Notes under the pieces: generated by a model
The model's input: only the letters and a program-made list of their open reading frames with translations
Databases searched by the model: none
What the model was told of the DNA's origin: nothing
Virus record (IMG/VR): IMGVR_UViG_3300031240_000002
Location: 1-64,000 of that record
Origin: a virus
Strand: one strand, 5' to 3'
Length of the DNA: 64,000 bases
Shown: positions 875 through 59,299 of the stretch, piece by piece
How positions within the stretch are numbered: the stretch's first letter is position 1
Layout of the letters: every line of letters starts with the position of its first letter
Position numbers and translations under genes: made by a program

Positions 875-885
875 GATACTACGCG
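875..885 (-). promoter_or_regulatory. CGCGTAGTATC leaderless promoter-like box
   Basis: Exact 11-mer. TAGTAT ends 7 nt before the ATG at 868, so a transcript starting 7-8 nt past this -10-like hexamer would begin at the start codon. Confidence 0.7.
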
Positions 886-4054: not shown

Positions 4055-4449
4055 GGCTGTCTCTCTCCCTCTTGGGTGGCGGTCACGGGGTCGCTTTCCG
4101 CCGGCCAGAAGGCGGCGCCGGTCTCGGTCACGATGATCTCGGGATGCCGCCGATAGAAGCGGGTCGTCGCGCAAACACACGGAGCGGCCCCGACCACCTC
4201 CCCGGCGTCGTTCTTGACCGTGTCGGCGATCCCCTTCTTGCACTTCCCGCACTTCGGTCGCGCGTAGGGGGTGATGTCGTTGACGACCACGGGGCGGCCC
4301 GGCTCGACATGGAGGTTGCGGCGGGGGTCAGGGGCGTTGGCGGCGGCGCGCGCGGCGGCCAGGCGCTCGCGGCGGGCGGTGACCTTGGCGCGGGCCTCGG
4401 CCTGGCGGGCGACCTTCTTCTCTCTCTTCCTGGCGCTGGGGCGGCTCAT
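4051..4449 (-). CDS. basic protein with Cys cluster
   Basis: 132 residues. The first 45 are very basic and helical (RPSARKREKKVARQAEARAK), compatible with nucleic-acid binding. The second half holds CGKCKKG...CVC, a probable zinc site. The ATG at 4449 has an exact CGCGTAGTATC box just upstream. No family is recognised. Confidence 0.6.
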   Translation of the reverse strand: MSRPSARKREKKVARQAEARAKVTARRERLAAARAAANAPDPRRNLHVEPGRPVVVNDITPYARPKCGKCKKGIADTVKNDAGEVVGAAPCVCATTRFYRRHPEIIVTETGAAFWPAESDPVTATQEGERQP

Positions 4450-4591
4450 CGACCACCGATACTACGCGCCCGCCTTTGGCCAATGGCGATCGCAGCGGAA
4501 CCACTTTCCCCGTCCACCGGGCGGGCTGGTCGCACTTGCCGCGCTTGCCGGACCAGACGACGGGGAAGGTGCAGGTGTAGCCGGTGGCCAT
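4328..4591 (-). CDS. overlapping small ORF, zinc-ribbon-like start
   Basis: 87 residues. The first half (YTCTFPVVWSGKRGKCDQPA, then TGKVVPLRSP) resembles a compact beta protein with two cysteines. The last 40 residues are low-complexity Arg/Pro and overlap the next gene by 122 nt. It is kept because an exact CGCGTAGTATC box precedes its ATG at 4591. A shorter product or a lost stop codon is possible. Confidence 0.45.
   Translation of the reverse strand: MATGYTCTFPVVWSGKRGKCDQPARWTGKVVPLRSPLAKGGRVVSVVDEPPQRQEEREEGRPPGRGPRQGHRPPRAPGRRARRRQRP
4458..4468 (-). promoter_or_regulatory. CGCGTAGTATC leaderless promoter-like box
   Basis: Exact 11-mer. TAGTAT ends 9 nt before the ATG at 4449. The box lies inside the overlapping ORF 4328-4591. 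Confidence 0.7.
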
Positions 4592-4617: not shown

Positions 4618-4920
4618 CTACAGCGTGGTGAGCTTCGAGCGAACGCGCGCCACGACGGCGGCGGCGAACTCGTCCACGCCGCCCGGCGACGCCTCGAACA
4701 CGGCCAGGAGGGCCTCTATCGCGTTCTCCTGTCCCTCCGGGTATCCGGCTCGGAAACCCGCCTCCCTCCCCGCCTCGAAGGCTTGGTCGACGGCGAGGGT
4801 TCGGTGGGGGGCGGTTGGGGTCTCGTCCGCGGGCAGGGACGTGGGTGGGTCGACCGTGGTCTTCGGGACCGCGTCCTGCGGCCAGTCGCGGGCCGGGTCG
4901 TCGTCGTCCTCCGTCGCCAT
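4618..4920 (-). CDS. acidic hypothetical protein
   Basis: 100 residues. It has an acidic N-terminus (ATEDDDDPARDW), a Pro/Thr linker, then a helical region (AFEAGREAGFRAGYPEGQEN and a following LLAVFEASPGGVDEF). No family is recognised. A TACCTT hexamer ends 6 nt before the ATG, and no Shine-Dalgarno is seen. Confidence 0.55.
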   Translation of the reverse strand: MATEDDDDPARDWPQDAVPKTTVDPPTSLPADETPTAPHRTLAVDQAFEAGREAGFRAGYPEGQENAIEALLAVFEASPGGVDEFAAAVVARVRSKLTTL

Positions 4921-8413: not shown

Positions 8414-8649
8414 GTGCACTCGACCAGGAACCGCAGCGCCAGCGCCGCCACGTCCAACGCCTCCTCGCGCGCGTTGCCGTCGAGCCCGCGCAGCGTCTCC
8501 CCGAGCTCGTCGACCGCGTGCTTCATCCGCGCCCAGCCGTCGTGCGGCGTGCGGCGCTCTGGCGAGTCGGTGCGCTCCTTGTTGAGAGCGCCCAGCACCT
8601 TCTCGATCGCCTGCGTGTCGGTCAGCGGTCTCGGTTTTCGGTTCGCCAT
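8410..8649 (-). CDS. small helical hypothetical protein
   Basis: 79 residues. Basic start (ANRKPRPLTDTQAIEKVLGA), then helices such as RMKHAVDELGETLRGLDGNA. It sits between the DnaB helicase and the HerA-like ATPase. The ATG at 8649 has an exact CGCGTAGTATC box upstream. No family is recognised. Confidence 0.6.
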   Translation of the reverse strand: MANRKPRPLTDTQAIEKVLGALNKERTDSPERRTPHDGWARMKHAVDELGETLRGLDGNAREEALDVAALALRFLVECT

Positions 8650-8656
8650 GCGCGGG

Positions 8657-8667
8657 GATACTACGCG
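8657..8667 (-). promoter_or_regulatory. CGCGTAGTATC leaderless promoter-like box
   Basis: Exact 11-mer. TAGTAT ends 8 nt before the ATG at 8649. Confidence 0.7.
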
Positions 8668-13746: not shown

Positions 13747-14706
13747 TCAGAATGCGGGCGGGGGGTTGTTGAACGCCGCGAAGGCGGCGTCACTGTCTTC
13801 GGCGACGGCCCACGGCATCGCCTCAAGTCTCACGATCTGGCGGGGGCGCGGCGGCCAGTATTGGCGCGCGGTCCCGAGCCGGATGGATCCGGCCCAGCCG
13901 TCGAACCCGCGGCGCCGCTTCTGCTCCCCAACCTGGCGCATCGTCCCGGCGAATTCGGTCACCAGGACTTCAAACGCCGGCGCGCCCTCGAGAAAGATGA
14001 ACCGCATGTTCCAGCGGCCATCGCTGTCGGCCACTAGGTGCTCGGCGCCCTTGATGTAGTGGGCGGCGGCCAGGTCGTAGCCGAACGAATGGCAGGCCAT
14101 CCGGCAGGCCCGGGGATTCGCCCGCGGGATCGTCTTGAGGTCGTCGATGATCAGCGTGGCGGGGTCAGGCCGCCAGCCGTCGTAGCGCGCGCGGCATAGG
14201 ACGCCATCCTCCTCCCAGACCGCCGTCACCTCGGTCTGCACGCCATCGAAGGTGACCCCCCAGTCGTCGCGGAGCTTGCGCGTGTAGGTCTCCGCCTCGG
14301 CCGTGTAGTCGTCCATGTCGGCGGCGAGGACGGGAATCAGCCCCACCGACCGGATCTCGTTGCGCCGCCGCTTCGCCCAGTCCTTCCGCCAGTCGTCGGC
14401 GGGCACCGTCGCGAAGTCCTGCCCGCGCCCGAGCACCAGCTTGTGGATGATCGAGCCGCGGTCCATCGACTTCGTGCCTCCCCCGCCCACGTCGCCGCCG
14501 AGCCTGGGGTGCGCGTACCAGCCGTAGAGCGGAGCGTCGGCCGCGATCTCCTTCGCGACGCTCGCGTTCAGCGAGGGGCGCGCGCAAGGATCGGATAGGT
14601 ATCTGTCGTGCGGCACGTCGAGGTGGAGTCCCACGCCGATCGGCGGCAGCTGGCCGGGCGGCGCGGGGGGGAAGAACTCCTCGACGATGTCCTCCGGTCC
14701 GCTCAC
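13747..14706 (-). CDS. PD-(D/E)XK exonuclease, RecB/RecE-like
   Basis: 319 residues. The core GVLCRARYDGWRPDPATLII followed by DDLKTI gives the D...DxK arrangement of PD-(D/E)XK nucleases. An upstream MDRGSIIHKLVLGRGQDF helix matches the motif that precedes the core in phage RecB-type exonucleases (DUF3799-like). A QTEVTAVW strand supplies the middle. It probably resects DNA ends for the adjacent Sak4-like protein. The start is a GTG at 14706 that overlaps the HTH gene's stop as GTGA. The open frame continues far upstream but only as a shadow. Confidence 0.8.
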   Translation of the reverse strand: MSGPEDIVEEFFPPAPPGQLPPIGVGLHLDVPHDRYLSDPCARPSLNASVAKEIAADAPLYGWYAHPRLGGDVGGGGTKSMDRGSIIHKLVLGRGQDFATVPADDWRKDWAKRRRNEIRSVGLIPVLAADMDDYTAEAETYTRKLRDDWGVTFDGVQTEVTAVWEEDGVLCRARYDGWRPDPATLIIDDLKTIPRANPRACRMACHSFGYDLAAAHYIKGAEHLVADSDGRWNMRFIFLEGAPAFEVLVTEFAGTMRQVGEQKRRRGFDGWAGSIRLGTARQYWPPRPRQIVRLEAMPWAVAEDSDAAFAAFNNPPPAF

Positions 14707-14939
14707 GACGCGCCCCGCGCCGCGCGCGCAGGGTCTGGGTACGCCTTCAGGAGCGAGTCCCGATGGATCCAGAGCGTGATCGAGCTCTTCACGAATGGCG
14801 CCCGCTCCGGGTGGACCTGTGGCAGGCGGCGCGATCGGTTGTAGATGCTCGACACCGCCCGGTCCACCAGCTTCGCGGCCTCGTCCACCGTCAGGTAGCC
14901 GAGGTCGCGCATTGTCGTTTCCTCGTCGGTCTGTGCCAT
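14703..14939 (-). CDS. small HTH (excisionase/MerR-like) DNA-binding protein
   Basis: 78 residues. YLTVDEAAKLVDRAVSSIYN followed by SSITLWIHRDSLLKAY is the pattern of winged-helix excisionase/AlpA-like proteins. It lies between the sigma-like gene and the exonuclease gene, so it may regulate this operon. The ATG at 14939 has an exact CGCGTAGTATC box whose TAG is the stop codon of the sigma-like gene. There is no integrase in the window, so true excisionase function is unlikely. Confidence 0.7.
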   Translation of the reverse strand: MAQTDEETTMRDLGYLTVDEAAKLVDRAVSSIYNRSRRLPQVHPERAPFVKSSITLWIHRDSLLKAYPDPARAARGAS

Positions 14940-14947
14940 CGCGGCGG

Positions 14948-14958
14948 GATACTACGCG
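14948..14958 (-). promoter_or_regulatory. CGCGTAGTATC leaderless promoter-like box
   Basis: Exact 11-mer. TAGTAT ends 9 nt before the ATG at 14939. Its TAG (14954-14952) is the stop codon of the sigma-like gene. Confidence 0.75.
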
Positions 14959-15806
14959 GAGGCGGAGCGCGGCAGGCCGAGGCCCCAGAACTCGTACCCG
15001 TTCTGCGCCTTCGTGCAGAGCCCGACGTCGGCCGCCGCGCGCACAGCCGCAGCGGAGATCGACCGGAAGGTCTGGCCGCGATAGGTGAATGTCTCCATTC
15101 CGACCAGAAGGCTCTGGTCTCCGCGGCGGACCACCGTATTCGGCGGCGGCAGCCGTGGATCTCGCGCCGCGCGCCGCACCGCCGCGATCGAGACGTCGGG
15201 GCCCACCGCCGCAGCGAAGCGTCCGAGCACCCGCCGTGCGCGCCGACGCCCGATCTTGGACCGCGAGCGTCCGCTGGTGACGACGTCTCGCACGAGGCGG
15301 CGCTCCTCCGGGGCGAGCGACCGGAGCACCTGCGCAGCTCGCTGGCCGCGATCGGCCTCGCCGGGCAACAGCGTCTCGCGGGCAGACTCCCCAACCTGGA
15401 CGGCCTTCACGCATCCGTCGTCCTCGATCCCATCGCTGTAACCGCACCCAGCGAGCGGGACGGCGTGCGCCGGCGCCACCTCATGCGCCAGGCGCCGCTG
15501 CGTGACGTGCTCGCTCACGCTCACCTGGTGCTCGGCCTTCCGCACCGCGTGGATGACGCGCCGGAAGGCGACCCTGCTCATCGGGGTGAACGGGTTGTCG
15601 CCCTCGAACTTCCCGCCGTAGCGCGCGGCCCATTCGAGCGCCCAGAGCACGGCCTCCTGGTAGACGTCGTCGACGTCCTGGCTCGGGACGGCGCGCGCCA
15701 TCCGCGCCCGGACGTTGGCGGCGACCTCCAGCGCCTTCTGCTCGACGACGTGACGGGGGAGGGTCGGGCTCTTTACGGCGATTCCCTGATCGGTGACTCT
15801 CGGCAT
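14952..15806 (-). CDS. sigma-70-like protein (candidate phage sigma factor)
   Basis: 284 residues. Residues ~25-105 resemble sigma-70 region 2: DVDDVYQEAVLWALEWAARY, then FTPMSRVAFRRVIHAVRKAE, followed by HQVSVSEHVTQRR, which is like the start of region 3. Residues ~160-200 (AQVLRSLAPEERRLVRDVV, SGRSRSKIGRRRARRVLGRF) look like a region-4 HTH. An extra domain of about 80 residues ends the protein. It probably binds host RNA polymerase and could read the unusual phage promoters. Its own gene has a strong Shine-Dalgarno site (AAGAGGAG, 5 nt spacing). Other HTH regulators remain possible. Confidence 0.6.
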   Translation of the reverse strand: MPRVTDQGIAVKSPTLPRHVVEQKALEVAANVRARMARAVPSQDVDDVYQEAVLWALEWAARYGGKFEGDNPFTPMSRVAFRRVIHAVRKAEHQVSVSEHVTQRRLAHEVAPAHAVPLAGCGYSDGIEDDGCVKAVQVGESARETLLPGEADRGQRAAQVLRSLAPEERRLVRDVVTSGRSRSKIGRRRARRVLGRFAAAVGPDVSIAAVRRAARDPRLPPPNTVVRRGDQSLLVGMETFTYRGQTFRSISAAAVRAAADVGLCTKAQNGYEFWGLGLPRSASA

Positions 15807-15972
15807 AGGTACTCCTCTTGGTCGGGGGGTCCTGGGGTTCAGGGCGACGGTCCGGGTAGTCCGGGCCGCCGCCCTTTCTTTTTGCCGAGCCCCTACTGGC
15901 GCCCGACAACCTCGACCATACGCCGGGTCGGTGACGCCGGTAAACTAAGAAATCGCGGTGGCCGGTCGATTT
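15807..15972. other. intergenic region upstream of sigma-like gene
   Basis: 166 nt between the RuvC-like gene and the sigma-like gene. It contains the strong hairpin at 15842-15874, the sigma-like gene's Shine-Dalgarno site, and on the plus strand a T-rich tail after the hairpin. No other gene is seen. Confidence 0.5.
15842..15884 (+). terminator. hairpin with T-tract, plus-strand orientation
   Basis: A 14-bp arm (15842-15855) pairs with 15861-15874 with two G-T type mismatches around a 5-nt loop, followed by TTTCTTTTT on the plus strand. It would stop plus-strand transcription even though all genes are on the minus strand. On the minus strand it would be a leader hairpin upstream of the sigma-like gene. 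Confidence 0.55.
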
Positions 15973-16554
15973 CTACGAAATGGGGATCGGGGTCTCGCCC
16001 ATGACCTTCCCGTAGTGGGCGATCAGCAGGGCATCGACGCGGCCGATCATCAGCCCCCCGCGGGGGCCGCGCAGGAGATGGTTTGCGGCGGGATATAGCT
16101 GGCCGGCGACCTGCGCCACGGCGCCGTCGTCCTTGTTCGTCCCCCGAAGCACCGCCGCCTTCCAGGTCGCAGGGTGGACCCGTTCGTGCGAGAGCTTCAG
16201 CGCGGTCAGCGCCATGCACCAAAGGCCGTAGCCGAAGCCGAAATTAAACATCGACGTCGCGCCCATCGTCCGGCGGCCACCGTCGATCGACGGCATCGCG
16301 TTGACCTTCTCCAGGGTGACGTGGACGCTGGTGGCGGCGTATTGGGTGGAGGCCAAGAGCCCCTCCAGGATCGTCACCATCTGGTGCTCGTCTGGGATGT
16401 TCTTCGCGCCCATCTTCGTGCCGCCGGTCTTCGCCCGCTTCTTGATCTGCATCTCGATCACCGGCATGTCCCAGACGCGGACGGTCCCGTCTGGCGAGAT
16501 GATGGCGACGGCTCCCGAGAGGCCCGGATCGATCCCGGCGTAGGCGACGCTCAC
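15973..16554 (-). CDS. RuvC-like Holliday junction resolvase
   Basis: 193 residues with the RuvC/RNase H-like acidic residues in order: YAGIDPGLSGAVAII (first Asp, residue ~8), VHVTLEKVNAMP (Glu, ~85) and GRVDALLIAHYG (Asp, ~180). A TMGATSMFNFGFGYGLWCMA helix and RVHPATWKAAVLRGTNKDDG lie between them, as in phage RuvC proteins. It probably resolves branched replication or recombination intermediates before packaging. The GTG start overlaps the preceding gene as GTGA. Confidence 0.9.
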   Translation of the reverse strand: MSVAYAGIDPGLSGAVAIISPDGTVRVWDMPVIEMQIKKRAKTGGTKMGAKNIPDEHQMVTILEGLLASTQYAATSVHVTLEKVNAMPSIDGGRRTMGATSMFNFGFGYGLWCMALTALKLSHERVHPATWKAAVLRGTNKDDGAVAQVAGQLYPAANHLLRGPRGGLMIGRVDALLIAHYGKVMGETPIPIS

Positions 16555-16883
16555 AGCGTCCGCATCCCGGGCGGCGTGCCTCGTCTCGGACCGGTGAGGA
16601 ACGAGTCGCCGATCGTCCCGTCGAGGAACGAGGCCCCGACGTTCATGGCGATGACGTCGGCGGCGGTGATCGGTTGGCCCTCGTCCGCGCGCTGCCGGTC
16701 CAGCAGGTCGAGCGATCGGGCGACCTCATTGCGGCGGACCGCCATCACGTAGGTGTTCCAGGCGTAGCAGTCCTGCCACCACTGGTAGAGCGCGTCCGTT
16801 TCGGTTGGATGCAGCTCGTCCGCTGGCCGCACCGGCGCCTCCCCCGGGTGCGGGAACCTCTCTGCCCACGTCTTCGTCGCCAT
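16551..16883 (-). CDS. hypothetical protein
   Basis: 110 residues. A Trp/Tyr-rich helix (ALYQWWQDCYAWNTYVMAVR) is followed by an Arg/Asp-rich helix (SLDLLDRQRADEGQP). No family is recognised. The ATG at 16883 has an exact CGCGTAGTATC box upstream. It lies directly before the RuvC-like gene and is probably co-transcribed with it. Confidence 0.6.
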   Translation of the reverse strand: MATKTWAERFPHPGEAPVRPADELHPTETDALYQWWQDCYAWNTYVMAVRRNEVARSLDLLDRQRADEGQPITAADVIAMNVGASFLDGTIGDSFLTGPRRGTPPGMRTL

Positions 16884-16890
16884 GGGCGCG

Positions 16891-16901
16891 GATACTACGC
16901 G
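16891..16901 (-). promoter_or_regulatory. CGCGTAGTATC leaderless promoter-like box
   Basis: Exact 11-mer. TAGTAT ends 8 nt before the ATG at 16883. Confidence 0.7.
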
Positions 16902-18252: not shown

Positions 18253-18651
18253 TCAGGGGGCGAGATTGCCGGCAATAAGATATTCGATCGTCGCGGTCCC
18301 CACGATCTTGATCGCGGTGTACTGGTCCCCCAGGTTCTTCGCCTGGATCACGAGGAGGTCCGAGACCGGGATCTGCTGGTCGGTCCCCTTGGCCGAGGTC
18401 AACTTCACGACGACGGTGGCGCCGGTGAGCGATCGGATCGCGATCGCCCGGACCGCCGTTACCGCCCCGAGAGACGGGGTGAACGGAGATCCGTCCGAGC
18501 TGGCGATCGGGACAGCGTCCGCGAAGACGGCGTCGAAGGTCGCCTGGAAGGCCAGGCTGATCGCCCCCATGAGGGGCGTCTGGTCGACGTCGCCAACGGC
18601 CTTTGCCGCGCAGGATCCGACCGAGCCGGACATCGCCACCAGGTAGGACAT
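18253..18651 (-). CDS. structural-type beta protein, paralogue of 53593-53997
   Basis: 132 residues. It shares a clear pattern with the protein at 53593-53997: GSPF...AVRAIAIRSLTGATVVVKLT, then IPVSDLLVIQAKNLGDQYTA and a terminal EYLIAGNLAP. It is beta-rich with few charges, as in virion decoration or fibre-attachment proteins. A TACGAT box ends 6 nt before the ATG. It sits between the spike and the holin candidate. The exact role is unknown. Confidence 0.6.
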   Translation of the reverse strand: MSYLVAMSGSVGSCAAKAVGDVDQTPLMGAISLAFQATFDAVFADAVPIASSDGSPFTPSLGAVTAVRAIAIRSLTGATVVVKLTSAKGTDQQIPVSDLLVIQAKNLGDQYTAIKIVGTATIEYLIAGNLAP

Positions 18652-20922: not shown

Positions 20923-21375
20923 TTACTGCGCCAGGGGTCGGTCGTACACCGGCCCCACGTTCAGTTCGGGCGTGCTCGGTCCGGTTCCCCCATTCACCAC
21001 CTCAAGCCGGCTGTTTGGCCCCTGGACGAGGTAGTCGTAGAAGGCGTCGGTGTTGGCAGGGACCGCATCTCCGGCGCCCGTTCCGTTCATCGTTCGCCAG
21101 GTAACAGAGCCGAGCCGCTGGATCTGATAGAGCAGCGTCACCGCTTGGTCGAACCGGCAGCTGACCGCCAGCCGCTCCGGCGGCGGAACCACGGGCGTCA
21201 CCGTCGTGTCGAAGACGATCGTCGTGGCGCTGGCCGTCGAAGGGATGGCGTTGAGCGGCACCCGCCAGACCGGGCCGCCGAACGACGATCCGACCTTGTG
21301 AGCGGGCGGGGGCGCGGCCGTGGGGTCGCACCCCAGGACCCCGAGGATCAGCGCGAAGAGGATGGCCGGCTTCAT
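20923..21375 (-). CDS. small lipoprotein
   Basis: 150 residues. The N-terminus KPAILFALILGVLGC is a classic lipoprotein signal with the acylated Cys at ~16. The mature part is beta-rich (VWRVPLNAIPSTASATTIVF; LLYQIQRLGSVTWRTM). It could be a host-surface protein that changes superinfection, or a spanin-like product. A TACGAT box ends 6 nt before the ATG. It lies 7 nt upstream of the spike gene. Confidence 0.65.
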   Translation of the reverse strand: MKPAILFALILGVLGCDPTAAPPPAHKVGSSFGGPVWRVPLNAIPSTASATTIVFDTTVTPVVPPPERLAVSCRFDQAVTLLYQIQRLGSVTWRTMNGTGAGDAVPANTDAFYDYLVQGPNSRLEVVNGGTGPSTPELNVGPVYDRPLAQ

Positions 21376-21940: not shown

Positions 21941-24900
21941 TCAGGCCAGTAGCCCAAAGGCGCGCAACGCTGCATAGGCGCGATTGAGCATGCCCTGCTC
22001 CGTAGCCGTGTAGACCACGCCAGCAGACGCGGATCCGCCTGCCTGCTGACCGACCGGGCTCGCGCCGAAGAACCCGACCTGGAACAGGTTGCCATCCGCG
22101 AACAGGGGCGTCCCGCCGCTCCCCTGCGCGATCAGAAGCGCCCCACGGACATCGCCTCCCACCTCAAGATCGCCACCGAAGTGAACCTGCCCCCCGGCCG
22201 CATAGACTGCGTACTCGCCACCACCCATGACGGCCGTGGCGGGCGCACCGTCGATATAGAGACTGGTGACAACGCTCGCGCTGTCCCCAAGGGACCCGCC
22301 CGTGTACGTCAACGAACGGATGCGCGCCGTCGAATAGATCGCCGGCGTTCTGGGCAGCTTGCCGTTGATGCTGGTGTCCGCCGGGATGATGTCAAACAGT
22401 GTGCTATCGCCGGTTCCGGTCGGCCCGAGAGTTCCGCCGCCGAGGTTGAACTGCACGCGATCCCTATCCGGAGCGGTGGTGATCCCGACGACAAGGCTCG
22501 TGTTGGTGAAGACCGTCGCGCCGTTGATGCCGATGGCGTTGCCGCCGGCCATGACGTGAGCCACCTGGTTGAAGGTGAACGTAGAATCACCCGTCGGGTT
22601 GGCGGATGTCCCCGCGCTCGTGAGGACCTGCCCGGAGAGGGGCCAGGTGATGACGCCCTGATAGGTCGCCGCGTTCACCGAGACCACGCGGCCCTGGGCG
22701 TCGAGGACGATCCCAGAAATGCCGGCGCCGCCCTGCAGGCCCGCGCCGGGGCCGACGTTCGGAAGACCGACGTTCGTGCGGGCGTGGGCGACGTCGTCGG
22801 CCGCTACGACCGTCCCGTCGAAGTTGAGGATCGCCCGCTGGGTCAGCGCCGAGCCGGCCTCTTCGACGGTCTGGTAGAACGCGCTAGTCAGATAGGCGAC
22901 GTTGCTGCCGCCGGTGACGAGCCCATCGCCGGTGATCGTCACGTTGTTGAAGGTGCCCGGCGAGGCCCCCGTTCCGATCAGATAGGTCGCGGTGCCGACT
23001 GCTGTCACACGCCCCTTCGCGTCGAGGGTGACTCCGCTGACACCCGCGCCGCCGTGCAGCCCAGCGCCAGCACCGGCGTTGGCCAGCGTGATGTCGGTCC
23101 GGGTGGCGCCTCCATTGTCGACGACGCCGAAGTCGACCGAGAAGCTGGCAATCGCGCGCGCCGTAACCGGGGTGCCATTCGCCTCGAGCGTCGTGTAGCC
23201 ACCGGCGCCGAAGCTGCCGGTCGTAGCGCCGGTGACGCGGCCCTGCGCGTCGAGAGTGATGCTCGCGATCCCCGCCCCGCCGATCGTCCCCGCCCCGGGC
23301 CCGGTCGCGGGCAGGCCCACATTGGTCCGCGCCGGCGATGCGCTGTCGGTCGCGACGACGGTCCCGTCGAAGTTCAAGATGGATCGCTGGGCGAGCGGCG
23401 TGCCAGCCTCCTCGACGGTCTGATAGAAAGCCCCGGTCAGAGCAGCATCGAAATTGGTCCACGCCCCACCGTTCTGGCTGTACTGAAGGTGTCCGCCCGC
23501 CGACCGGATGCCTGCCGTTCCAGATGCCGAAACTGCCGCGGTCGAGTTTCCCCAAAGCGTTGAGCCATCCCCGGGGAGGTACATCGCCCTAAACTGCGCG
23601 CCCCCGTTCCAGCCGACGAAGATGATCGGTCGCCCCGTTGGGCTACTCCCGTAGTTCTGGAAGTTGTCGAGCACGAGTGCATTCGTGCTGCCCAGCGCAC
23701 CGCTGTAAGCCTCAGACGTGTAGTAGATTCCGGCTGCGGTACCGGTGAATACGTTCGACGCGGGGGAGAAAAAAGCCATTCCTGTGTCGGTCGTGTTCCT
23801 CCCGCTGTCGACGTTCACGAACGACAGGGTGCCAGGCCAGGTCGAGCTGCCGCCGATCTGTGTGTTGTAGGTCCCTGCCGTGATGCCACCGGCGGTTCCC
23901 GTGAACGGACCCGCGTAGAAGGTCTGCACGCTGCCGGCAGAGACGGTCGAGAGCTTGCTGTTATTGGCAACGACCCCGCCGGACATGCCGACGACGTTCA
24001 TCGACTGGACGGCGGCTGGAGTCTTCGGGAAGGAGATCCTACCGTTGCTGAACGCATACATAGAGACTTCGTTGTTCGCCACCGGGTCAGAACTGAGGCC
24101 AGTCGGATTGGCGGCGATGTACCAGGCGCTCCCGGCGTGTCCCGTGCTGGGTGTGTTATCGACGTAAAACCCGGTGGCGGCCGTGTTCAGGTAGCTGGTC
24201 CCGTCGAAGGCGAGCGCGTCATCACGAAGGAGATAATCCGACAATGCGACGCTCGTCGGACTCGCAAAGGTTCCTCTAGCCTTGATGCTGACGCGCCTCG
24301 CTGGCGTGCTCGACGTCGAGTAGGACGCGACGGCCAGCCCGCGGTCAGAGGCGCCAGCCTCGTCGACGAGGTGGACCTGATAGAGCGGGAGGCCGGAGGA
24401 GACCCGCGACCCGAAGCGAACGTTGGTCGGGTCATAGCCCAGCGCATTCACCGCCTCCGCCAGGACACCACTACCGTTGAGGAACGGCACCGTGTTGGCG
24501 ATCCCCGTTACCGACGATCCCGGGATCGCGAGTACGCCGAGAGCTCCCCCGGAGACGTGTAACGTGCCGTCGAACGACAGCCCCAGGTCGGTGCGCGCCG
24601 CCCCGCTGTTGTCCACTGCCGTCAGCGGTGCCACAGCGTTCAGCGTTGGCCTCTGAGTCAATGGCACGCCCGCAGCGTCGACCGTTTGATAGAAGACCGT
24701 GGTCGTCGCTGTGGCGGAATGCACAGTCCCGTCATCATCGATCGCCGTCAGGAACTGTCCGCCAACGGCCGCGAACGTTTTCACCCCGTGCGTGATCGCC
24801 CCGGCGTTGTTCTTGAAGGCGATGTTCTTCGAGGCGGCATCCGCATAGAGGGCACCGAACCCGAGCGCGGGCAACGCGGGAGCGACGCTGTCGGCGAACA

Positions 24901-26593
24901 GGACGGAGCCCGCCGCCGTCGTCTGATCCGGAATGTTGGTCAGGATGAAGGTCGCCGCGCCGGGTCCAGTCGCCGTCCCGTCCCCGACCAGCGAGGTGAT
25001 ACCGCCGCTGGTGAACGTCCCGGTCGAGGCGCCCGTAACTCGACCTTGCGCATCTAAGGTGATGCTGGTGATTCCGAAACCGCCGATCGTCCCCGCTCCG
25101 GGACCGACAGCCGGAAGACCGACGTTGGTGCGGGCGGGGCTGGCGCTGTCACTGGCTACGACCGTCCCGTCGAAGTTGAGGATCGTGCGCTGGGTCAGCG
25201 CCGAGCCGGCCTCTTCGACGGTCTGATAAAAGATCGTCGGCGCTCCGGTCAGCGAGGAGTATGGGACCGCGCTCCACGCCAGCGCACCGCCGGTGCGCCC
25301 GAGGAACTGCCCGTCCGCGCCCGCGACGATGTCCTGAGCGTTCGCCGTGCTGCCAGTCGGATTACCGACGACAGAGAGCGCCACGCTCTGCCGGAAGAGA
25401 GCAGTGGTGATCCCGTTCGCGGCGATCGAGACGTCGGTCCGGGTCGCCCCGGAATTGTCGACGGGCGTCAGCGGTCCCACGAAGTTGAGGATCGTGCGCT
25501 GGGTGAGCGGGGTGCCGGCGGCGTCGATCGTGGCATAGGCCGATGCCGCGGAGGTTCCGAACGGTTGGTAGGCGCCCCCGTTCTCGGAGAACTCGGCGTG
25601 CCCTGTGCTCTCGTTGTAGCGGAATCGCGCAGTGCCGGAAGCGCTGATCGGCGAGGTGCTCGCCGCGCCGAGGGCCAGCACCGGGTGCGTCGCCGGCGGC
25701 GTCCCGATCCCCACCCCTAGGTCTGCCTGTAGCCCACCCGTCGACTTGAAGATCCCGAGGATCGTCGCCCCGTTCAGGAGCTGGAGATCGTCCGCCACGT
25801 TCATGGCGTCGAGCGTGGCGCCACCAGTTCGGTCGAGGCGAAGCGCTGGCGCGGCGCCCTTCGCGTGGAGGCTCTGCAGGGGGGCGGCGATCCCGATTCC
25901 GACGCGGCCGGTGGCGCGGTCGACCACCACCGGGCCGCCCGCCGCCGTATTGATCCGGAGCGCGCTTGCGCCGGTGAAGTTGCTCTGGCTGCCGTCGACG
26001 ATGATCCCGCCGCCGAGCGAGTCGTGGAGGACCATCGTCTGGTCACTGCTGTCCGCCCCGTGGCTGTAGGCTCCCGCCAGGGTCGTGAAGCCTCCCGCGC
26101 CGCCGGTGACGGTCTCCCGCAGGAGTTCAAGCCAGCGGTTCAGTTCGGTGGCCCAGCCTTGCAGGATCGTCGGGACGCTGGTGTCCTCCAGCGTCTCGAA
26201 CCCGCCGAGCTTTCGCAGGGTGCGGACGGTGGAGCCGGGGCCGGGGATGGTCAGGCCGCTCAAGCGGCAGAGGATCGCGGTGATGCGGATCTGGCCCGGG
26301 GTCCCAGGGTTGAGCGTCGCCTGGACGTCGTAGGTCCCGTCGAGCCGGAAGTCCCCCGAGTCGCTGTCGACGTTGAAGGCCGTCGAGTTGGCGGTCGCCA
26401 GCAGGATCGGCTCGGGCCCGGCGCCGCCCGCCGCGCTACCCTCAGGACGCCCGATCAGCTCCCACTTGACCGAGGTGATCCCGACGTAGTTCGAGAGCGA
26501 CAGCCCGACGAGATCGCCCGCGACCAGGTCGTCTCGGTATCCGCTTACCGACCCGCTTCCATTGCGGGTCGACAGAATCGTCGGCTGGGGCAC
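21941..26593 (-). CDS. long tail fibre protein with repeats
   Basis: 1550 residues. An N-terminal region (~1-180) probably attaches to the baseplate. Next come VGIGIAAPLQSLHAKG-type segments often seen in phage fibres. Then at least six imperfect units follow, built on FYQTVEEAG-LTQR-ILNFDG, a TNVGLP turn and ITLDAQGRVTGA. The C-terminus (STLSPVGQQAGGSASAGVV-like, ending in a helix) is probably the distal part. The GTG start at 26593 has a TATCAT box 6 nt upstream. It is the largest gene in the window. Confidence 0.85.
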   Translation of the reverse strand: MPQPTILSTRNGSGSVSGYRDDLVAGDLVGLSLSNYVGITSVKWELIGRPEGSAAGGAGPEPILLATANSTAFNVDSDSGDFRLDGTYDVQATLNPGTPGQIRITAILCRLSGLTIPGPGSTVRTLRKLGGFETLEDTSVPTILQGWATELNRWLELLRETVTGGAGGFTTLAGAYSHGADSSDQTMVLHDSLGGGIIVDGSQSNFTGASALRINTAAGGPVVVDRATGRVGIGIAAPLQSLHAKGAAPALRLDRTGGATLDAMNVADDLQLLNGATILGIFKSTGGLQADLGVGIGTPPATHPVLALGAASTSPISASGTARFRYNESTGHAEFSENGGAYQPFGTSAASAYATIDAAGTPLTQRTILNFVGPLTPVDNSGATRTDVSIAANGITTALFRQSVALSVVGNPTGSTANAQDIVAGADGQFLGRTGGALAWSAVPYSSLTGAPTIFYQTVEEAGSALTQRTILNFDGTVVASDSASPARTNVGLPAVGPGAGTIGGFGITSITLDAQGRVTGASTGTFTSGGITSLVGDGTATGPGAATFILTNIPDQTTAAGSVLFADSVAPALPALGFGALYADAASKNIAFKNNAGAITHGVKTFAAVGGQFLTAIDDDGTVHSATATTTVFYQTVDAAGVPLTQRPTLNAVAPLTAVDNSGAARTDLGLSFDGTLHVSGGALGVLAIPGSSVTGIANTVPFLNGSGVLAEAVNALGYDPTNVRFGSRVSSGLPLYQVHLVDEAGASDRGLAVASYSTSSTPARRVSIKARGTFASPTSVALSDYLLRDDALAFDGTSYLNTAATGFYVDNTPSTGHAGSAWYIAANPTGLSSDPVANNEVSMYAFSNGRISFPKTPAAVQSMNVVGMSGGVVANNSKLSTVSAGSVQTFYAGPFTGTAGGITAGTYNTQIGGSSTWPGTLSFVNVDSGRNTTDTGMAFFSPASNVFTGTAAGIYYTSEAYSGALGSTNALVLDNFQNYGSSPTGRPIIFVGWNGGAQFRAMYLPGDGSTLWGNSTAAVSASGTAGIRSAGGHLQYSQNGGAWTNFDAALTGAFYQTVEEAGTPLAQRSILNFDGTVVATDSASPARTNVGLPATGPGAGTIGGAGIASITLDAQGRVTGATTGSFGAGGYTTLEANGTPVTARAIASFSVDFGVVDNGGATRTDITLANAGAGAGLHGGAGVSGVTLDAKGRVTAVGTATYLIGTGASPGTFNNVTITGDGLVTGGSNVAYLTSAFYQTVEEAGSALTQRAILNFDGTVVAADDVAHARTNVGLPNVGPGAGLQGGAGISGIVLDAQGRVVSVNAATYQGVITWPLSGQVLTSAGTSANPTGDSTFTFNQVAHVMAGGNAIGINGATVFTNTSLVVGITTAPDRDRVQFNLGGGTLGPTGTGDSTLFDIIPADTSINGKLPRTPAIYSTARIRSLTYTGGSLGDSASVVTSLYIDGAPATAVMGGGEYAVYAAGGQVHFGGDLEVGGDVRGALLIAQGSGGTPLFADGNLFQVGFFGASPVGQQAGGSASAGVVYTATEQGMLNRAYAALRAFGLLA

Positions 26594-26639: not shown

Positions 26640-28097
26640 CTACCGGAGGCGCTTCACGCCGTGGTCGAAGCCGAGGAACGCCAGGACAAGAGTTCCCGCC
26701 CCCGCAGCCGCAGCCCAGAATGTCGGCAGCAGCGCATTGAACGGCAGCACGCCTCGCCCGGGTACCTGGCCTGCGGTGGCAGTCAGGAGAGGAGGGAATC
26801 CCGTAGCACTGAACCCAGGAGAAGCCGCGGTCCCATCGCCCTGGTCTGGATAGGCATCACTCGTTCCGGTGCCGGTGCCAGCGAGAAACGAGCACGCCGC
26901 TCGGCTTGAGATCGCCGGCACCACGGGGGGCGAATTCACTTCGAGCTTAGCGGTCGCTGCACCACCGTAGACGTGCTGAACATTGTTCAGGTTGGCGAGG
27001 AAGCTCACGCCATCGTGGTACGTGTACGAATCGTCCATGAAGCAGGCCGCCCGCCGTGTGGTGTTCGCGATGACGCTGCCGAGTCCGATGTAGACGCAGG
27101 CGGCAGTTGGGGCGCTGCCGCGCGGCGTGGTGATCGCCGCGGTCGGTCTCCCCGTCGACAGGGTCGGCGGCGTCGTGCTCTCGACGATGACCACGGGCGC
27201 GTGGAGCGTCGTGCCCATCTGCGGCGCGTGGCGGCCGCCGACCGCGTAGAGGTAGTAGGGCTTGTTCCATGTCGCGCTCGCGGGCGAGCCGAACGGATTG
27301 GCCGCGCCGTCCTGGAAGATCTCCAGCGAGACCCCGAGTGTCTCGATCAGTTCGCCGTCGATGATCACCCGGCAGTCGTCCAGGGCGCCGAACGAGATCG
27401 TCGATGCCGTGGTCGTCGGGTCGGCGGTCAGGTCCCACTGCGGTTTGAACCCGGAGACGATCCCGCTGAAGTTCGACCAGGGAAACGGCGCGCGCCGGAA
27501 CATCCGCGGCACCGCGGAGAATCCCGTCGCATCGCTGGCGCCGGTCGGGACAAAGACCTCGAACAGCGCGAATGCCCCAGATGGAACCGCAGGCGGGACA
27601 GGCGAGGAGCCAGGCGTCCCTGCGACGACGGCGAGCGTCGCCTGTGGGTTTGTCGTCTTGAAGACGTTCTGCGGCGTCGTCGTGCGCGCGACCGGGTCCA
27701 CCAGGATCGTCCGGCTCTGGCTGTCCGCGTCGACCGCCGCCGGCGTCGCCACCACCAGGTCGATCCGCGGATTCCCCGACGGAGCGCCGAAGGTCAGCAC
27801 CGTCTGCGCCCAGCGCGCGATCTCGTAGGCGCTGTCGTCCGCGGTGAGGCTGCTGTCGCCGGGGTTCCAGCAGAGCGCCTGCGCGGCCGCCAGGGTCATG
27901 TTGAAGGTGGCCACGACGCCCACCAGCGAGCACGGTCCGCTCAGACCCGTGATCGGTATGCCACCCACGTCTGAGCTGGCGTCGGCCAGGAGGTTCTGCA
28001 GATCGCGGCTCGCGAGCGACTGCAACCGATTGACGTCCGACGTGATGAATTCTTCGCGCGCGTTGAATTTCTCTCGGGACGTTCCGATGCCGCTCAT
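26640..28097 (-). CDS. tail fibre or baseplate-associated structural protein
   Basis: 485 residues. An N-terminal helix (KFNAREEFITSDVNRLQSLA) is like those of phage fibre-base proteins. A long beta-rich body follows (VDPVARTTTPQNVFKTTNP; DDCRVIIDGELIETLGVSLE), and the C-terminus is hydrophobic (FWAAAAGAGTLVLAFLGF). Position between the long fibre and the J-type baseplate proteins supports a fibre-attachment role. A TAGCAT box ends 6 nt before the ATG. Confidence 0.65.
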   Translation of the reverse strand: MSGIGTSREKFNAREEFITSDVNRLQSLASRDLQNLLADASSDVGGIPITGLSGPCSLVGVVATFNMTLAAAQALCWNPGDSSLTADDSAYEIARWAQTVLTFGAPSGNPRIDLVVATPAAVDADSQSRTILVDPVARTTTPQNVFKTTNPQATLAVVAGTPGSSPVPPAVPSGAFALFEVFVPTGASDATGFSAVPRMFRRAPFPWSNFSGIVSGFKPQWDLTADPTTTASTISFGALDDCRVIIDGELIETLGVSLEIFQDGAANPFGSPASATWNKPYYLYAVGGRHAPQMGTTLHAPVVIVESTTPPTLSTGRPTAAITTPRGSAPTAACVYIGLGSVIANTTRRAACFMDDSYTYHDGVSFLANLNNVQHVYGGAATAKLEVNSPPVVPAISSRAACSFLAGTGTGTSDAYPDQGDGTAASPGFSATGFPPLLTATAGQVPGRGVLPFNALLPTFWAAAAGAGTLVLAFLGFDHGVKRLR

Positions 28098-28130: not shown

Positions 28131-28646
28131 CTATCCGCCGTCTGCCGGGATGCAGATTTCGAACACCGCGACGTAGGTCTTTCCGATTGGGCATGTACCG
28201 CCATCGCCGGCCAGAACGGTGCCCCCTGGACAACTCGCCAGCGGCACGCTGGCCGGACATGGCTGGGCATTGGGATCGCAATAGCGGACGCCTGGTACCG
28301 AGACACAGGCGTCGGTGCCAGCGTCGAGACGACCGTCCGCGCCCGCTGCCTGGCCTCCGCCGTCCTGGCCGCCCGTAGCGCCCCCTGTGGCTTCCAGCCC
28401 GCCTGCCTGCCCGCCGGGGGCACCAGCGAGCCCGCCAGCGCCACCGAGACTCGCCTGCAGCTGGGCGGCATCAGGAGTGACCGACCCACACCCAGACACC
28501 GCGACGCCCACGCCGAGCGCCAGCCCGAACATGATCGCCACGACGATCCACAGGCTGACCTGAGGATTCGCATGGGCCGCCCGCGACAACGGGACGGGCA
28601 GGCGCCGGCAGAGGAAGCAGTCCGGGTCCGAGCAGGTCATCATCAT
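28131..28646 (-). CDS. lipoprotein with Gly/Ala-rich spacer
   Basis: 171 residues. A basic N-terminus containing a CSDPDCFLC cluster is followed by a long hydrophobic segment (VSLWIVVAIMFGLALGVGVAV) and SGCGS as a possible lipobox. Next come a GGAGG/GGATGG spacer (~70-105) and a Cys-containing C-terminal domain (CVSVPGVRYCDPNAQPCPAS). Gly-rich spacers after a lipobox are a habit of Myxococcota lipoproteins. The ATG has an exact CGCGTAGTATC box upstream. It probably decorates the host surface during infection. Confidence 0.65.
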   Translation of the reverse strand: MMMTCSDPDCFLCRRLPVPLSRAAHANPQVSLWIVVAIMFGLALGVGVAVSGCGSVTPDAAQLQASLGGAGGLAGAPGGQAGGLEATGGATGGQDGGGQAAGADGRLDAGTDACVSVPGVRYCDPNAQPCPASVPLASCPGGTVLAGDGGTCPIGKTYVAVFEICIPADGG

Positions 28647-28652
28647 GGTCGA

Positions 28653-28663
28653 GATACTACGCG
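28653..28663 (-). promoter_or_regulatory. CGCGTAGTATC leaderless promoter-like box
   Basis: Exact 11-mer. TAGTAT ends 7 nt before the first ATG at 28646 (ATG codons also at 28643 and 28640). Confidence 0.7.
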
Positions 28664-43761: not shown

Positions 43762-43910
43762 TCACCGGCGTGTTCCGCCTGGCACGCGGCCTCGCGGCGC
43801 TCGCAGTCCCGGCAGACGTCACCATCGTCGTCGACCATGTTCGGGCATCCCTTGAAGCCCGCACATGGGAACTCATCGGCGCGCGTCTCGTCGTCCCATC
43901 CGACCGGCAT
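43758..43910 (-). CDS. small Cys-rich protein
   Basis: 50 residues: FPCAGFKGCPNMVDDDGDVC then RDCERREAACQ, a compact zinc-binding pattern seen in GC-rich phages. The ATG at 43910 has an exact CGCGTAGTATC box whose TAG ends the previous gene. The stop overlaps the methyltransferase start. Confidence 0.6.
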   Translation of the reverse strand: MPVGWDDETRADEFPCAGFKGCPNMVDDDGDVCRDCERREAACQAEHAGE

Positions 43911-43917
43911 GGGCTGG

Positions 43918-43928
43918 GATACTACGCG
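43918..43928 (-). promoter_or_regulatory. CGCGTAGTATC leaderless promoter-like box
   Basis: Exact 11-mer. TAGTAT ends 8 nt before the ATG at 43910. TAG (43924-43922) is the stop codon of the HK97-gp10-like gene. Confidence 0.75.
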
Positions 43929-46464: not shown

Positions 46465-46965
46465 CTACCCTTTTGAGGTGTGCACCAACACCCGGCAGAT
46501 CCTCCCGCCGGCGCGCCCGGACCCGCAAAGCTGGTCGCGCCGGTCGGGAGGGGAGCCACCGCCTACTCCGGGACGAGCCGCCGCCGGAACGGGAATGCCG
46601 AGTAGGGAGACCTCCCGGCGTCGCAGGCAGCGTTCATCTCTCGCTTGATTCGTTCCTGCAATTTCGGCGTCGGTCTCTTCACGCATGCCGGGGATGCCGG
46701 GATCGAGCAGCGATCGGGCTCGCCCCTGGCTGGCCGCGATGCGCTCCGGGTAGACGACGGCGTTCGGGTTCTCGATCGTGAACGGACCGATCGTGCCGAG
46801 CGGCGGCCAGACGGTCTCGTCTCCGGCGGTTACGTCCTGCCAGGGCGCGAGCTCGACCGGCGCCTCGCGGCCCACCGACCTCGGGTCGGTCACCATCGGC
46901 AGAGGCTGGATCTCGCAGGTCTCGACGCACCCCTCCTCGGGGTTGCAGCGCGGATCGTGGAGCAT
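46465..46965 (-). CDS. hypothetical Cys-containing protein
   Basis: 166 residues. The first 70 have a Cys cluster (LHDPRCNPEEGCVETCEIQP) and a short fold (VWPPLGTIGPFTIENPNAVV). The rest is Arg/Glu-rich and then low-complexity Gly/Pro, ending near a GGTAG. The ATG at 46965 has an exact CGCGTAGTATC box. The C-terminal 50 residues may be read-through of a lost stop. Confidence 0.5.
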   Translation of the reverse strand: MLHDPRCNPEEGCVETCEIQPLPMVTDPRSVGREAPVELAPWQDVTAGDETVWPPLGTIGPFTIENPNAVVYPERIAASQGRARSLLDPGIPGMREETDAEIAGTNQARDERCLRRREVSLLGIPVPAAARPGVGGGSPPDRRDQLCGSGRAGGRICRVLVHTSKG

Positions 46966-46973
46966 CGCCCCCA

Positions 46974-46984
46974 GATACTACGCG
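46974..46984 (-). promoter_or_regulatory. CGCGTAGTATC leaderless promoter-like box
   Basis: Exact 11-mer. TAGTAT ends 9 nt before the ATG at 46965. Confidence 0.7.
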
Positions 46985-49072: not shown

Positions 49073-49083
49073 GATACTACGCG
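49073..49083 (-). promoter_or_regulatory. CGCGTAGTATC leaderless promoter-like box
   Basis: Exact 11-mer. TAGTAT ends 8 nt before the ATG at 49065. TAG (49079-49077) is the stop codon of the HNH gene. The 33-nt surroundings are nearly identical to those at 56547. Confidence 0.75.
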
Positions 49084-49862
49084 GCCGGCGCGCCAGCGCG
49101 GAACGGCTCCGCAGCGCGGGCACGGATGGCGGCGGGGTCGTAGCCGTACCTCGCGCAGAAGACCTCCAGCGGCCGGTCCCTCTTCCGCGAGTTGCAGCTC
49201 CTGCAGGCGGGCACGATGTTGCCGCGAACGTGCGCCGCGCGCGCCCCGAGCTTCACCACCGGGTCGAGATGATCCATGGTCAGGTCTTTCCTGCGCTCCT
49301 TCCCGCAGTAGGCGCAGCACCAACCGAAAGCGTCGACCACCTTCTTCCAGTCCGCCCACGGGAACAGCGAGACGGGCACACCGAGTCGAAGCGCGACGTT
49401 GATTGGCTGGTGCTTCAGCATCGCCCGTCGCTCGCGTTCTCGCTCGCGGTGGTATTGCCGGCGCTCCGGTTTCTCGCGGTCACGTCTCTGGGCGGCGCGA
49501 CCCTTGGGCGACCGCGACCACTTCGCATAGCTCGCCTTGCGTCGATCGGGATGCCGAGCGTCGTAGCGCTTCGTTCCCTGGGCCGCCGAGAGCTTCGCCC
49601 TTTCGGGATTCGCTGCCGTCCATCGGTCGAGACGCTCTCGCGTCTTCCGCTGCCGCTCCGGATTCGCCCGGTAGTGGCGCGCGTCAGCTGCGGCTTTCTT
49701 CTTCGGGTTGGCCTTCTGCCATTCCACCGCCTTGATCTTCGTGCATCGAATGCAGTAGCCGCACCAGCCGTCATCTTTCTTCGACGGGTAGAAGTTGCCC
49801 TCGGCGACGAGGACGTCGCGACACCGCGAGCACTGCTTATTCCCATCCGGTCGGACGTTCAC
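49077..49862 (-). CDS. HNH endonuclease
   Basis: 261 residues. An N-terminal zinc part (CSRCRDVLVAEGNFYPSKKD, CGYCIRC) and a long basic region rich in Arg/Lys come first. The C-terminal HNH core has CCAYCGKERRKDLTMDHLDP, then NIVPACRSCNSRKRD. This is the plan of phage homing-type HNH nucleases. The GTG start at 49862 is preferred over the upstream ATG at 49901 because an exact CGCGTAGTATC box ends 6 nt before it and the upstream part crosses a terminator. It interrupts the head gene cluster. Confidence 0.85.
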   Translation of the reverse strand: MNVRPDGNKQCSRCRDVLVAEGNFYPSKKDDGWCGYCIRCTKIKAVEWQKANPKKKAAADARHYRANPERQRKTRERLDRWTAANPERAKLSAAQGTKRYDARHPDRRKASYAKWSRSPKGRAAQRRDREKPERRQYHRERERERRAMLKHQPINVALRLGVPVSLFPWADWKKVVDAFGWCCAYCGKERRKDLTMDHLDPVVKLGARAAHVRGNIVPACRSCNSRKRDRPLEVFCARYGYDPAAIRARAAEPFRAGAPAA

Positions 49863-49868
49863 GCGACC

Positions 49869-49879
49869 GATACTACGCG
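49869..49879 (-). promoter_or_regulatory. CGCGTAGTATC leaderless promoter-like box
   Basis: Exact 11-mer. TAGTAT ends 7 nt before a GTG start at 49862. It lies just after the capsid terminator, so a new transcript would be needed. Confidence 0.75.
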
Positions 49880-56008: not shown

Positions 56009-56539
56009 TCAGCCCTTGAACCGCCCGAGCGGCAACTCCGGGATGGTGGCGAGCCACTCAGCGTAGGGGTCCGTCGGGTTCCCCTTCCAGTCGACCGACG
56101 GACGCAAGAGCACCGAGCTTCGGTGGCGAACGGGAGGGGCCACGGCGTGCCCAGATGGCAGCACCAGGAACGCGCGCCGCGTGTAGGGGTTTCCCTCAGG
56201 TGCCTGGCCGGTCAGCTTGACGTAGCAGGCGCTGCAGACGTACGCGTGGTCCAGGCCGCGGTTGGCGCCCTCTCCCTGCAGCTCCCAGAAGTCGCGGCGC
56301 GGCTGCCAAGGATCGATGCAGCGATGGGCGCGGCACCTGATCATCTCCGCTTGGTAGGCCGTCAGCGCCGCCGCCTCGTCCGCGATCTGCGCGAGCCTGG
56401 CGCGCTCACGCTCCTCGTCCCGCTCTCTCTTCCGGTCGAGGTCGCGGCTCGCCTCGAGGAGGTAGGCGCCAGCCGCCGCCGCGAACAGGAGAGCCAGCAG
56501 CCCGAGCGGGAGGTAGTCGACCAGGAAGTCTGCGGTCAT
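56009..56539 (-). CDS. membrane-anchored Cys-containing protein
   Basis: 176 residues. An N-terminal span (YLPLGLLALLFAAAAGAYLL) is followed by a charged coiled-coil-like region (DLDRKRERDEERERARLAQI). A Cys-rich domain (CRAHRCIDPWQPRRDFWELQ; YVCSACYVKLTG) comes last. The ATG at 56539 has an exact CGCGTAGTATC box. The role is unknown, perhaps envelope-linked. Confidence 0.6.
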   Translation of the reverse strand: MTADFLVDYLPLGLLALLFAAAAGAYLLEASRDLDRKRERDEERERARLAQIADEAAALTAYQAEMIRCRAHRCIDPWQPRRDFWELQGEGANRGLDHAYVCSACYVKLTGQAPEGNPYTRRAFLVLPSGHAVAPPVRHRSSVLLRPSVDWKGNPTDPYAEWLATIPELPLGRFKG

Positions 56540-56546
56540 GGACCCG

Positions 56547-56557
56547 GATACTACGCG
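56547..56557 (-). promoter_or_regulatory. CGCGTAGTATC leaderless promoter-like box
   Basis: Exact 11-mer. TAGTAT ends 8 nt before the ATG at 56539. TAG (56553-56551) is the stop codon of the HNH pseudogene. Confidence 0.75.
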
Positions 56558-58925: not shown

Positions 58926-59282
58926 TTATTTTCTTGCGACGGCCATCAGTTTGAACTTGATGGTGCTGCGCTTCTTCTCCTCGTCGTACCCGGTCTCCGA
59001 TGTCGCCTCGATCTCGTACTCGCGGGTGTTGATCTGCAGGCTGGTGATCTCGCGCCCGGTGGCATCGAACAAACGAATGGTGGCCGATTGGAGGTGGTCG
59101 GGGTTGGCGCCGACGTAGGTCGAGACCCTCTGGTTGATCAGGGACAGGCATCGCCCGCACGGCTCGCCAGTGAAGTCGCCGGATTCGAGCGCCTTGGTCC
59201 TCACGTACTCGAAGGCCAGCTCGGCCCTCGTCTTGCCGCAGACCGATGTCTCTCCCCCGTCGGTGCTCCCGTGGACGCTCAT
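58926..59282 (-). CDS. hypothetical protein
   Basis: 118 residues. An N-terminal helix with a Cys pair (ELAFEYVRTKALESGDFTGE; CGRC), then strands (SATIRLFDATGREITSLQIN; REYEIEATSE) and a basic end. The ATG at 59282 has an exact CGCGTAGTATC box. No family is recognised. Confidence 0.55.
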   Translation of the reverse strand: MSVHGSTDGGETSVCGKTRAELAFEYVRTKALESGDFTGEPCGRCLSLINQRVSTYVGANPDHLQSATIRLFDATGREITSLQINTREYEIEATSETGYDEEKKRSTIKFKLMAVARK

Positions 59283-59288
59283 GCGGCA

Positions 59289-59299
59289 GATACTACGCG
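59289..59299 (-). promoter_or_regulatory. CGCGTAGTATC leaderless promoter-like box
   Basis: Exact 11-mer. TAGTAT ends 7 nt before the ATG at 59282. TAG (59295-59293) is the stop codon of the gene 59293-59727. Confidence 0.75.

Follow-up and report, generated by a model that had tools for sequence, protein, structure and literature searches.

A sigma-like protein of an uncultivated, GC-rich phage probably guides the host RNA polymerase to promoters that are specific to the phage and mostly leaderless, a reading to which we assign a probability of roughly three in four and in which the protein would bind an 11-bp box, CGCGTAGTATC. The DNA analysed (the window) comprises the first 64,000 nucleotides of the IMG/VR record IMGVR_UViG_3300031240_000002, the whole record being 87,737 bp. 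What we observed is remote sigma homology of a 284-aa protein, a promoter-like layout of the box, and a change of the box along with the sigma across a group of related phages. The core of the earlier sequence-only reading, that a sigma-like protein possibly reads the box, therefore stands through homology and the sigma/box comparison, and is strengthened by the finding that different sigmas go with different boxes and similar sigmas with the same box; its assignments of a region 3 and of a normal region-4 helix-turn-helix (HTH) were not supported.

The record is that of a myovirus-like phage of 68% G+C with genes for tail sheath, baseplate wedge, tape measure, DnaB helicase, exonuclease VIII, RuvC, major head and portal proteins. 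The large terminase subunit (record 82634-83476, minus strand, the same as L126:8634-9476) was matched only over an ATPase-type stretch of 280 aa; that of the sister contig G003 is similar in length, and a separate gene may encode the nuclease part. A glycine/tyrosine-rich repetitive protein (GYGSGYGYGDGYG...) is encoded at 2245-2703. The sigma-like gene, its neighbours and the parts of its product are as follows.

14952..15806, minus strand: sigma-like gene, ATG start, 284 aa (ORF list)
15812..15816, minus strand: Shine-Dalgarno (SD) site AGGAG of the sigma-like gene, 5-nt spacer to the ATG (sequence)
15973..16554, minus strand: RuvC-like resolvase gene, upstream of the sigma-like gene (phrog_1770, E 4e-29)
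14703..14939, minus strand: small HTH_17-like gene, 78 aa, box-driven, downstream of the sigma-like gene (HTH_17, E 0.013)
residues ~20-93: region-2-like part of the sigma-like protein (relatives' profile, AlphaFold/Foldseek)
residues ~94-150: linker
residues ~160-215: atypical region-4 stretch
residues ~216-284: extra C-terminus, with weak similarity of residues 230-276 to the end of DUF2924 (E 0.011, Pfam hmmscan)

The block DVDDVYQEAVLWALEWAARY, on which region 2 had been proposed, is present in the 284-aa ORF, and the leader reads ...CCAAGAGGAGTACCT-ATG on the minus strand. As had been claimed, the gene has a strong SD site (AGGAG at 15816-15812) and no box in front of it, the closest upstream box ending at 16901, 1,095 nt off. 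A box directly in front of the sigma gene was likewise absent in 9 of 9 phages, most copies having a purine-rich SD-like site. The TAG stop of the sigma-like gene falls within the box at 14948..14958 of the next gene, 8 nt before the ATG of that gene; the downstream gene is box-driven, as had been noted. The proposal that the sigma is made before the box genes kept its premises, the missing box and the SD site, and was weakened because the box promoter at 16901, 1.1 kb upstream, may also serve the sigma-like gene. In G001 and G009, RuvC homologues lie directly behind those phages' own boxes. A G+C-rich hairpin followed by TTTCTTTTT is present at 15841-15895 in the leader of the sigma-like gene, in the plus-strand reading and hence against the gene direction; it is missing from the terminator scan list.

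Direct searches with the 284-aa protein gave weak matches. The TIGR02937 sigma70-ECF family scored 17.9 bits (E 0.0018), below its cut-off of 42.9 bits, and Sigma70_r2 scored 11.4 bits against a cut-off of 24 in a six-frame search; such a cut-off is a mark of confidence and no biological property, and some relatives' proteins, including the G016 and G025 sigmas, do pass that of Sigma70_r2. Pfam hmmscan of the protein returned no sigma match, and sigma-E region 2 chains were reached at an E of about 0.8-1. No similarity to the G001 sigma was found by BLASTP, the homology being visible only via profiles. Nothing was matched by tblastn among annotated phages and plasmids, a genome scan of bacteria and archaea found no relative, and the sole match in a single-sequence search of viral contigs was a near-identical contig of this phage. 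A TrkA_C match at residues 203-235 (E 0.0034, below cut-off) was taken as chance.

The relatives settle the sigma question where direct searches are weak. Test profiles were built from the sigma-like proteins of six, then eight related phages, with the window protein left out. Among 607 ORFs, the six-relative profile ranked the window protein first with E 2.1e-5 (next ORF 0.69) and the eight-relative profile ranked it first with E 4.4e-7 (next ORF 0.25). Against solved sigma factors, the family profile matched FliA with E 5.6e-8 without the window protein and 2.7e-11 with it, and also matched CnrH (1.2e-5) and SigE. AlphaFold placed helices at residues 18-36, 42-63 and 73-93 with pLDDT ~80, and the best Foldseek matches for this part were sigma-E region 2 (2map, TMt 0.58; 4lup, 0.54), yet at an E of about 1; the comparison with sigma factors proposed earlier thus favoured sigma-E region 2 by rank and not by E value. 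Outside region 2 the confidence of the model was poor (mean pLDDT 53). The model of one relative's sigma matched almost solely sigma factors, with a probability of ~1. The region-2-like block is supported because the relatives' and family profiles match it and the predicted helices most resemble sigma-E region 2. The motif VSVSEHVT, formerly read as the start of region 3, falls instead in the linker behind region 2. No clear region-4 HTH was found: the profile match stops at residue 177-189, short of the recognition helix, and an alternative alignment with region 4 requires a 14-residue insertion. By profile comparison, then, the 284-aa protein is a remote homologue of the ECF-like sigma-70 family.

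Within the window the box CGCGTAGTATC is found 13 times without a mismatch, each time on the minus strand; one-mismatch copies are absent, and two-mismatch matches are at chance level. The copies, read as box promoters, are listed below.

875..885, minus strand: box promoter, ATG at 868
4458..4468, minus strand: box promoter, ATG at 4449; box retained in the sister contig L247
4600..4610, minus strand: box promoter, exact copy of CGCGTAGTATC
8657..8667, minus strand: box promoter, ATG at 8649; box retained in the sister contig L247
14948..14958, minus strand: box that includes the sigma-like gene's TAG stop, with the ATG of the next gene after 8 nt
16891..16901, minus strand: box promoter, ATG at 16883, followed by the RuvC-like gene (15973-16554) and then the sigma-like gene
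28653..28663, minus strand: box promoter, ATG at 28646
43918..43928, minus strand: box promoter, ATG at 43910; found at the same position in G002
46974..46984, minus strand: box promoter, ATG at 46965; found at the same position in G002, other gene behind
49073..49083, minus strand: box promoter, exact copy of CGCGTAGTATC
49869..49879, minus strand: box promoter, GTG at 49862 of an HNH endonuclease gene; in G002 same place after the major head gene, other gene
56547..56557, minus strand: box promoter, ATG at 56539
59289..59299, minus strand: box promoter, ATG at 59282

In the whole record there are 17 exact copies (16 on the minus and one on the plus strand) and one one-mismatch copy; reversed-pattern controls gave 0 copies. 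An ATG or GTG follows 6-8 nt after the box in 16 of the 17 copies (binomial p = 2e-18 from the local ATG/GTG density). By our own gene calling, none of 14 box genes has an SD site, as against 35 of 99 genes with neither signal, and neither AGGAG nor GGAGG is contained in the box. Upstream of the box, C stands at -18 relative to it in 23 of 24 boxes of the window phage and its sisters (Bonferroni p 5e-8) and at -17 in 17 of them; both L247 boxes likewise have C at -18 (2/2 more). This C/CC sits at the place of a -35 contact, though it spans no more than one or two bases.

In an initial scan of IMG/VR for the exact box, chance matches predominated. All IMG/VR contigs with several CGCGTAGTATC boxes were the window phage or its sisters. 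The sisters are the contigs G002, G003 and L247 from one metagenome, fragments of phages with about 46-98% protein identity, and they hold nine further exact boxes, mostly at the same places; the sigma locus is absent from the available contigs of sister phages with the same box. Compared with G002/G003, the box is kept and the gene behind it is unrelated at 49869-49879 (after the major head gene), 46974-46984 and record 75834-75844. Since the box stays constant while the gene behind it differs, the boxes mark swappable, moron-like genes, and the finding suggests that box and gene act like a swappable moron cassette.

Comparison with related phages, found via the major head protein, tail sheath and RuvC, provides the strongest evidence. 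A sigma-like gene is present in the replication/recombination region of G001, G009, G018, G021, G025, G027 and G028, most of which have a small HTH gene close downstream of it (at least six relatives by synteny); G016 also carries a sigma-like gene. The box CGCGTAGTATC is found in 0 of 23 related records found via the head protein, and in G001 there is none either. De novo search found in the relatives listed below boxes of their own that are strict, strand-specific and start-associated.

G001: CGGACAATGATC, 7 copies, no one-mismatch copies
G009: GTAAACC...CCCTAAATAC, 7 copies
G010: GGTAATATCC, 8 copies
G018: AAAAC...GATCAACAATA, 7 copies
G021: AAAAC...GAACAACAATA, 4 copies
G025: GGGAAAA-N13-GGGCAA, 10 copies, one strand
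G027 and G028: CGGCCAACA, 10 of 10 on the plus strand in G027 and 11 of 11 on the minus strand in G028

Clear -35 partners at sigma-like spacing accompany the boxes of G009, G018, G021 and G025. The boxes CGGCCAACA, GGGCAA and CGGACAATGATC do not fit TANNNT, yet occupy the same place, and some boxes in G001, G025, G027 and G028 lie well upstream of an SD site and leader. Since boxes of relatives precede SD leaders, the element would act on transcription and not on translation, and together with the boxes lacking TANNNT this indicates that the boxes are promoters. Sigma and box were both found in eight phages, the window phage included. The similar-sigma pairs G018/G021 (62% identity) and G027/G028 (45%) share boxes, and phage pairs at 29% sigma identity or less do not; this association comes from a small sample of eight phages with two similar pairs, and those pairs are also closer kin overall. 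As far as sequence comparison goes, the box changes with the sigma across the group.

No box was found in G016 despite its sigma. Repeats of G016 (TCTTGTAGATGT), G020 (AGTTGAACT) and G004 (GGTTCGATTCC) were rejected as promoters, being apparent coding-sequence repeats, duplications or tRNA-like, and L148 was a spurious match. G018 (64958-65464, plus strand) and G019 (27543-28049, plus strand) encode a second, more canonical ECF-like sigma of 168 aa on the opposite strand, identical in the two and exceeding the TIGR02937 cut-off. ParB-like genes adjoin the sigma gene in G009 and G025. In the record, a 522-aa protein (64731-66299, minus strand) is similar at its N-terminus to a G001 protein over about 180 residues and looks ParB-like.

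A second class of start was seen in the window phage, with TANNNT 5-11 nt before the start codon at 18 other gene starts, some with a TAGACG-like -35 element 17-18 nt upstream of TANNNT. Its layout is a TAGACG- or TAGTCC-like -35, a 17-18 nt spacer, TANNNT, 6 nt and the start codon, mostly before late and structural genes; such signals lie on the minus strand at the upstream ends of 4618-4920, 18253-18651, 20923-21375, 21941-26593 and 26640-28097. TA-like signals mark leaderless genes (PMC3160421), and this class looks like host housekeeping promoters for leaderless genes. The record also encodes a 434-aa protein (79664-80968, minus strand, the same as L126:5664-6968) that has a zinc knuckle and, at its C-terminus, an HTH scoring above the Sigma70_r4 cut-off (PF04545, E 8e-6), but no region 2; it may be a partner of the window sigma or an HTH protein unrelated to it.

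The chief rival to a phage sigma reading the box is that the HTH_17 protein (14703-14939) or another phage DNA-binding protein acts as activator or repressor on the box over a host-type -10, the sigma-like protein having a minor or different role. The small HTH gene behind the sigma in at least six relatives, box-driven in the window phage, and the sigma-region-4-like HTH of the 434-aa protein speak for it. However, the box is not palindromic and sits exactly where sigma region 2 reads the -10, and one small HTH protein would not explain the matching -35 at normal promoter spacing in four relatives; we consider this explanation unlikely. Still less probable is that the host housekeeping sigma uses the box as a strong -10 for leaderless genes, with no need of a phage sigma. 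Its core, TAGTAT, does fit the host rule TANNNT, as do the 18 other starts, some with a TAGACG-like -35, and signals of this type mark leaderless genes (PMC3160421); but the box is conserved exactly over 11 bp with nearly no near-misses, in contrast to the variable TANNNT class, its promoters lack the TAGACG -35 of that class, and the counterparts in relatives without TANNNT stand at the same place.

A role in initiation of translation, as for the Start-Associated Sequences (SAS) of cluster K mycobacteriophages, would explain exact elements a few nt before start codons, in one orientation and with differing genes behind the same site (PMC3203893). It is very improbable, as SAS contains the SD core AGGAG and CGCGTAGTATC has none, while boxes of G001, G025, G027 and G028 can stand far upstream of an SD site and several relatives' boxes have a -35. 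That the resemblance to sigma factors is chance and the 284-aa protein no sigma factor would agree with the failure of every curated family to reach its cut-off with this protein; given the match of the independent relatives' profile (E 4e-7), the syntenic sigma locus and a region 2 that models onto sigma-E, we regard it as scarcely credible.

According to the favoured reading, that of a phage sigma reading the box, the 284-aa protein would join the host core RNA polymerase and read CGCGTAGTATC as the -10 part, with only a slight -35 contact through the C/CC some 17-18 nt upstream of it. Transcripts would begin about 6-9 nt past the TAGTAT core, on the start codon or just ahead of it, and the mRNAs would hence be mostly leaderless. 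Having an SD site and no box, the sigma gene could be made first from host-type transcription, and would then be maintained from the 16901 box promoter. Related phages carry a gene of this kind at the corresponding locus, and their diverged sigmas go with diverged boxes. Some of them have a full -35, but the window phage has almost none, and its region 4 also appears atypical. A variant we hold to be doubtful is a split or re-engineered sigma, in which the 284-aa protein would provide region 2 only and read the -10, the -35 side being served by its unusual C-terminus or by the 434-aa protein (record 79664-80968). If this were true, promoter choice would rest almost wholly on the 11-bp -10 box, and the sigma/box pairs of the group would have split into many private promoter codes that exclude one another.

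Phage-encoded sigma factors with private promoters are already known, and the window sigma is a very divergent form. The closest precedent is phiEco32 gp36 and the sigma factor of phage 7-11, which are of the ECF type and use a long -10 with no recognisable -35; their box, tAATGTATA, lies 6-8 nt before the transcript start, and boxes of related phages are related but different (PMC4331800, PMC4281155, PMC5333181). Common to both systems are a phage-encoded, remote ECF sigma and a conserved, phage-specific, short -10-type box. In phiEco32 and 7-11 the 6-8 nt lead to the transcript start, and here to the start codon; few boxes stand there before middle and late operons with leaders, the host and sequence being known, whereas the window phage, of an uncultivated GC-rich group, has 17 exact copies, mostly leaderless and mostly before single small genes, with a much lower sigma similarity and an extra C-terminus. 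Bacterial ECF sigmas (sigma-E, CnrH, SigH) are similar to the window protein in region 2, and several relatives resemble them in having AAAC- or GAAAA-type -35 elements and a -10 at comparable spacing; unlike them, the window protein falls below curated cut-offs and has an atypical region 4, an additional C-terminal stretch and almost no -35.

The SAS of cluster K, a short exact repeat before start codons that has an SD core and is presumed to work in translation (PMC3203893), resembles the box in being a short exact repeat in one orientation with differing genes behind; the box differs in having no SD and a -10-like core, and in that its homologues can lie ahead of SD leaders. The TANNNT leaderless promoters of Actinobacteria and Deinococcus-Thermus carry their -10 core some 12 bp upstream of the start codon and lack an SD (PMC3160421). 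The box is like them in its -10 core just before the start codon and its lack of an SD, and differs in being an exact 11-mer whose counterparts in relatives need not contain TANNNT. What is unusual here is the sequence distance, the exactness and number of the boxes, the leaderless layout before single swappable genes, and the paired series of sigmas and boxes.

Several of these sigmas, including that of the window, were missed since they are too divergent for ordinary annotation, and phage sigma systems may therefore be under-counted; the approach of combining a strict start-associated box with a syntenic gene is usable on other uncultivated phages. Within one lineage, the phages form a series in which specificity factor and promoter appear to have changed together. 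The series allows testing which sigma residues set the choice of -10 and -35, how a sigma loses its dependence on the -35, and by what means private promoters are maintained in phages for accessory genes that can be swapped. Our findings suggest that viruses of this group run private, fast-changing transcription codes.
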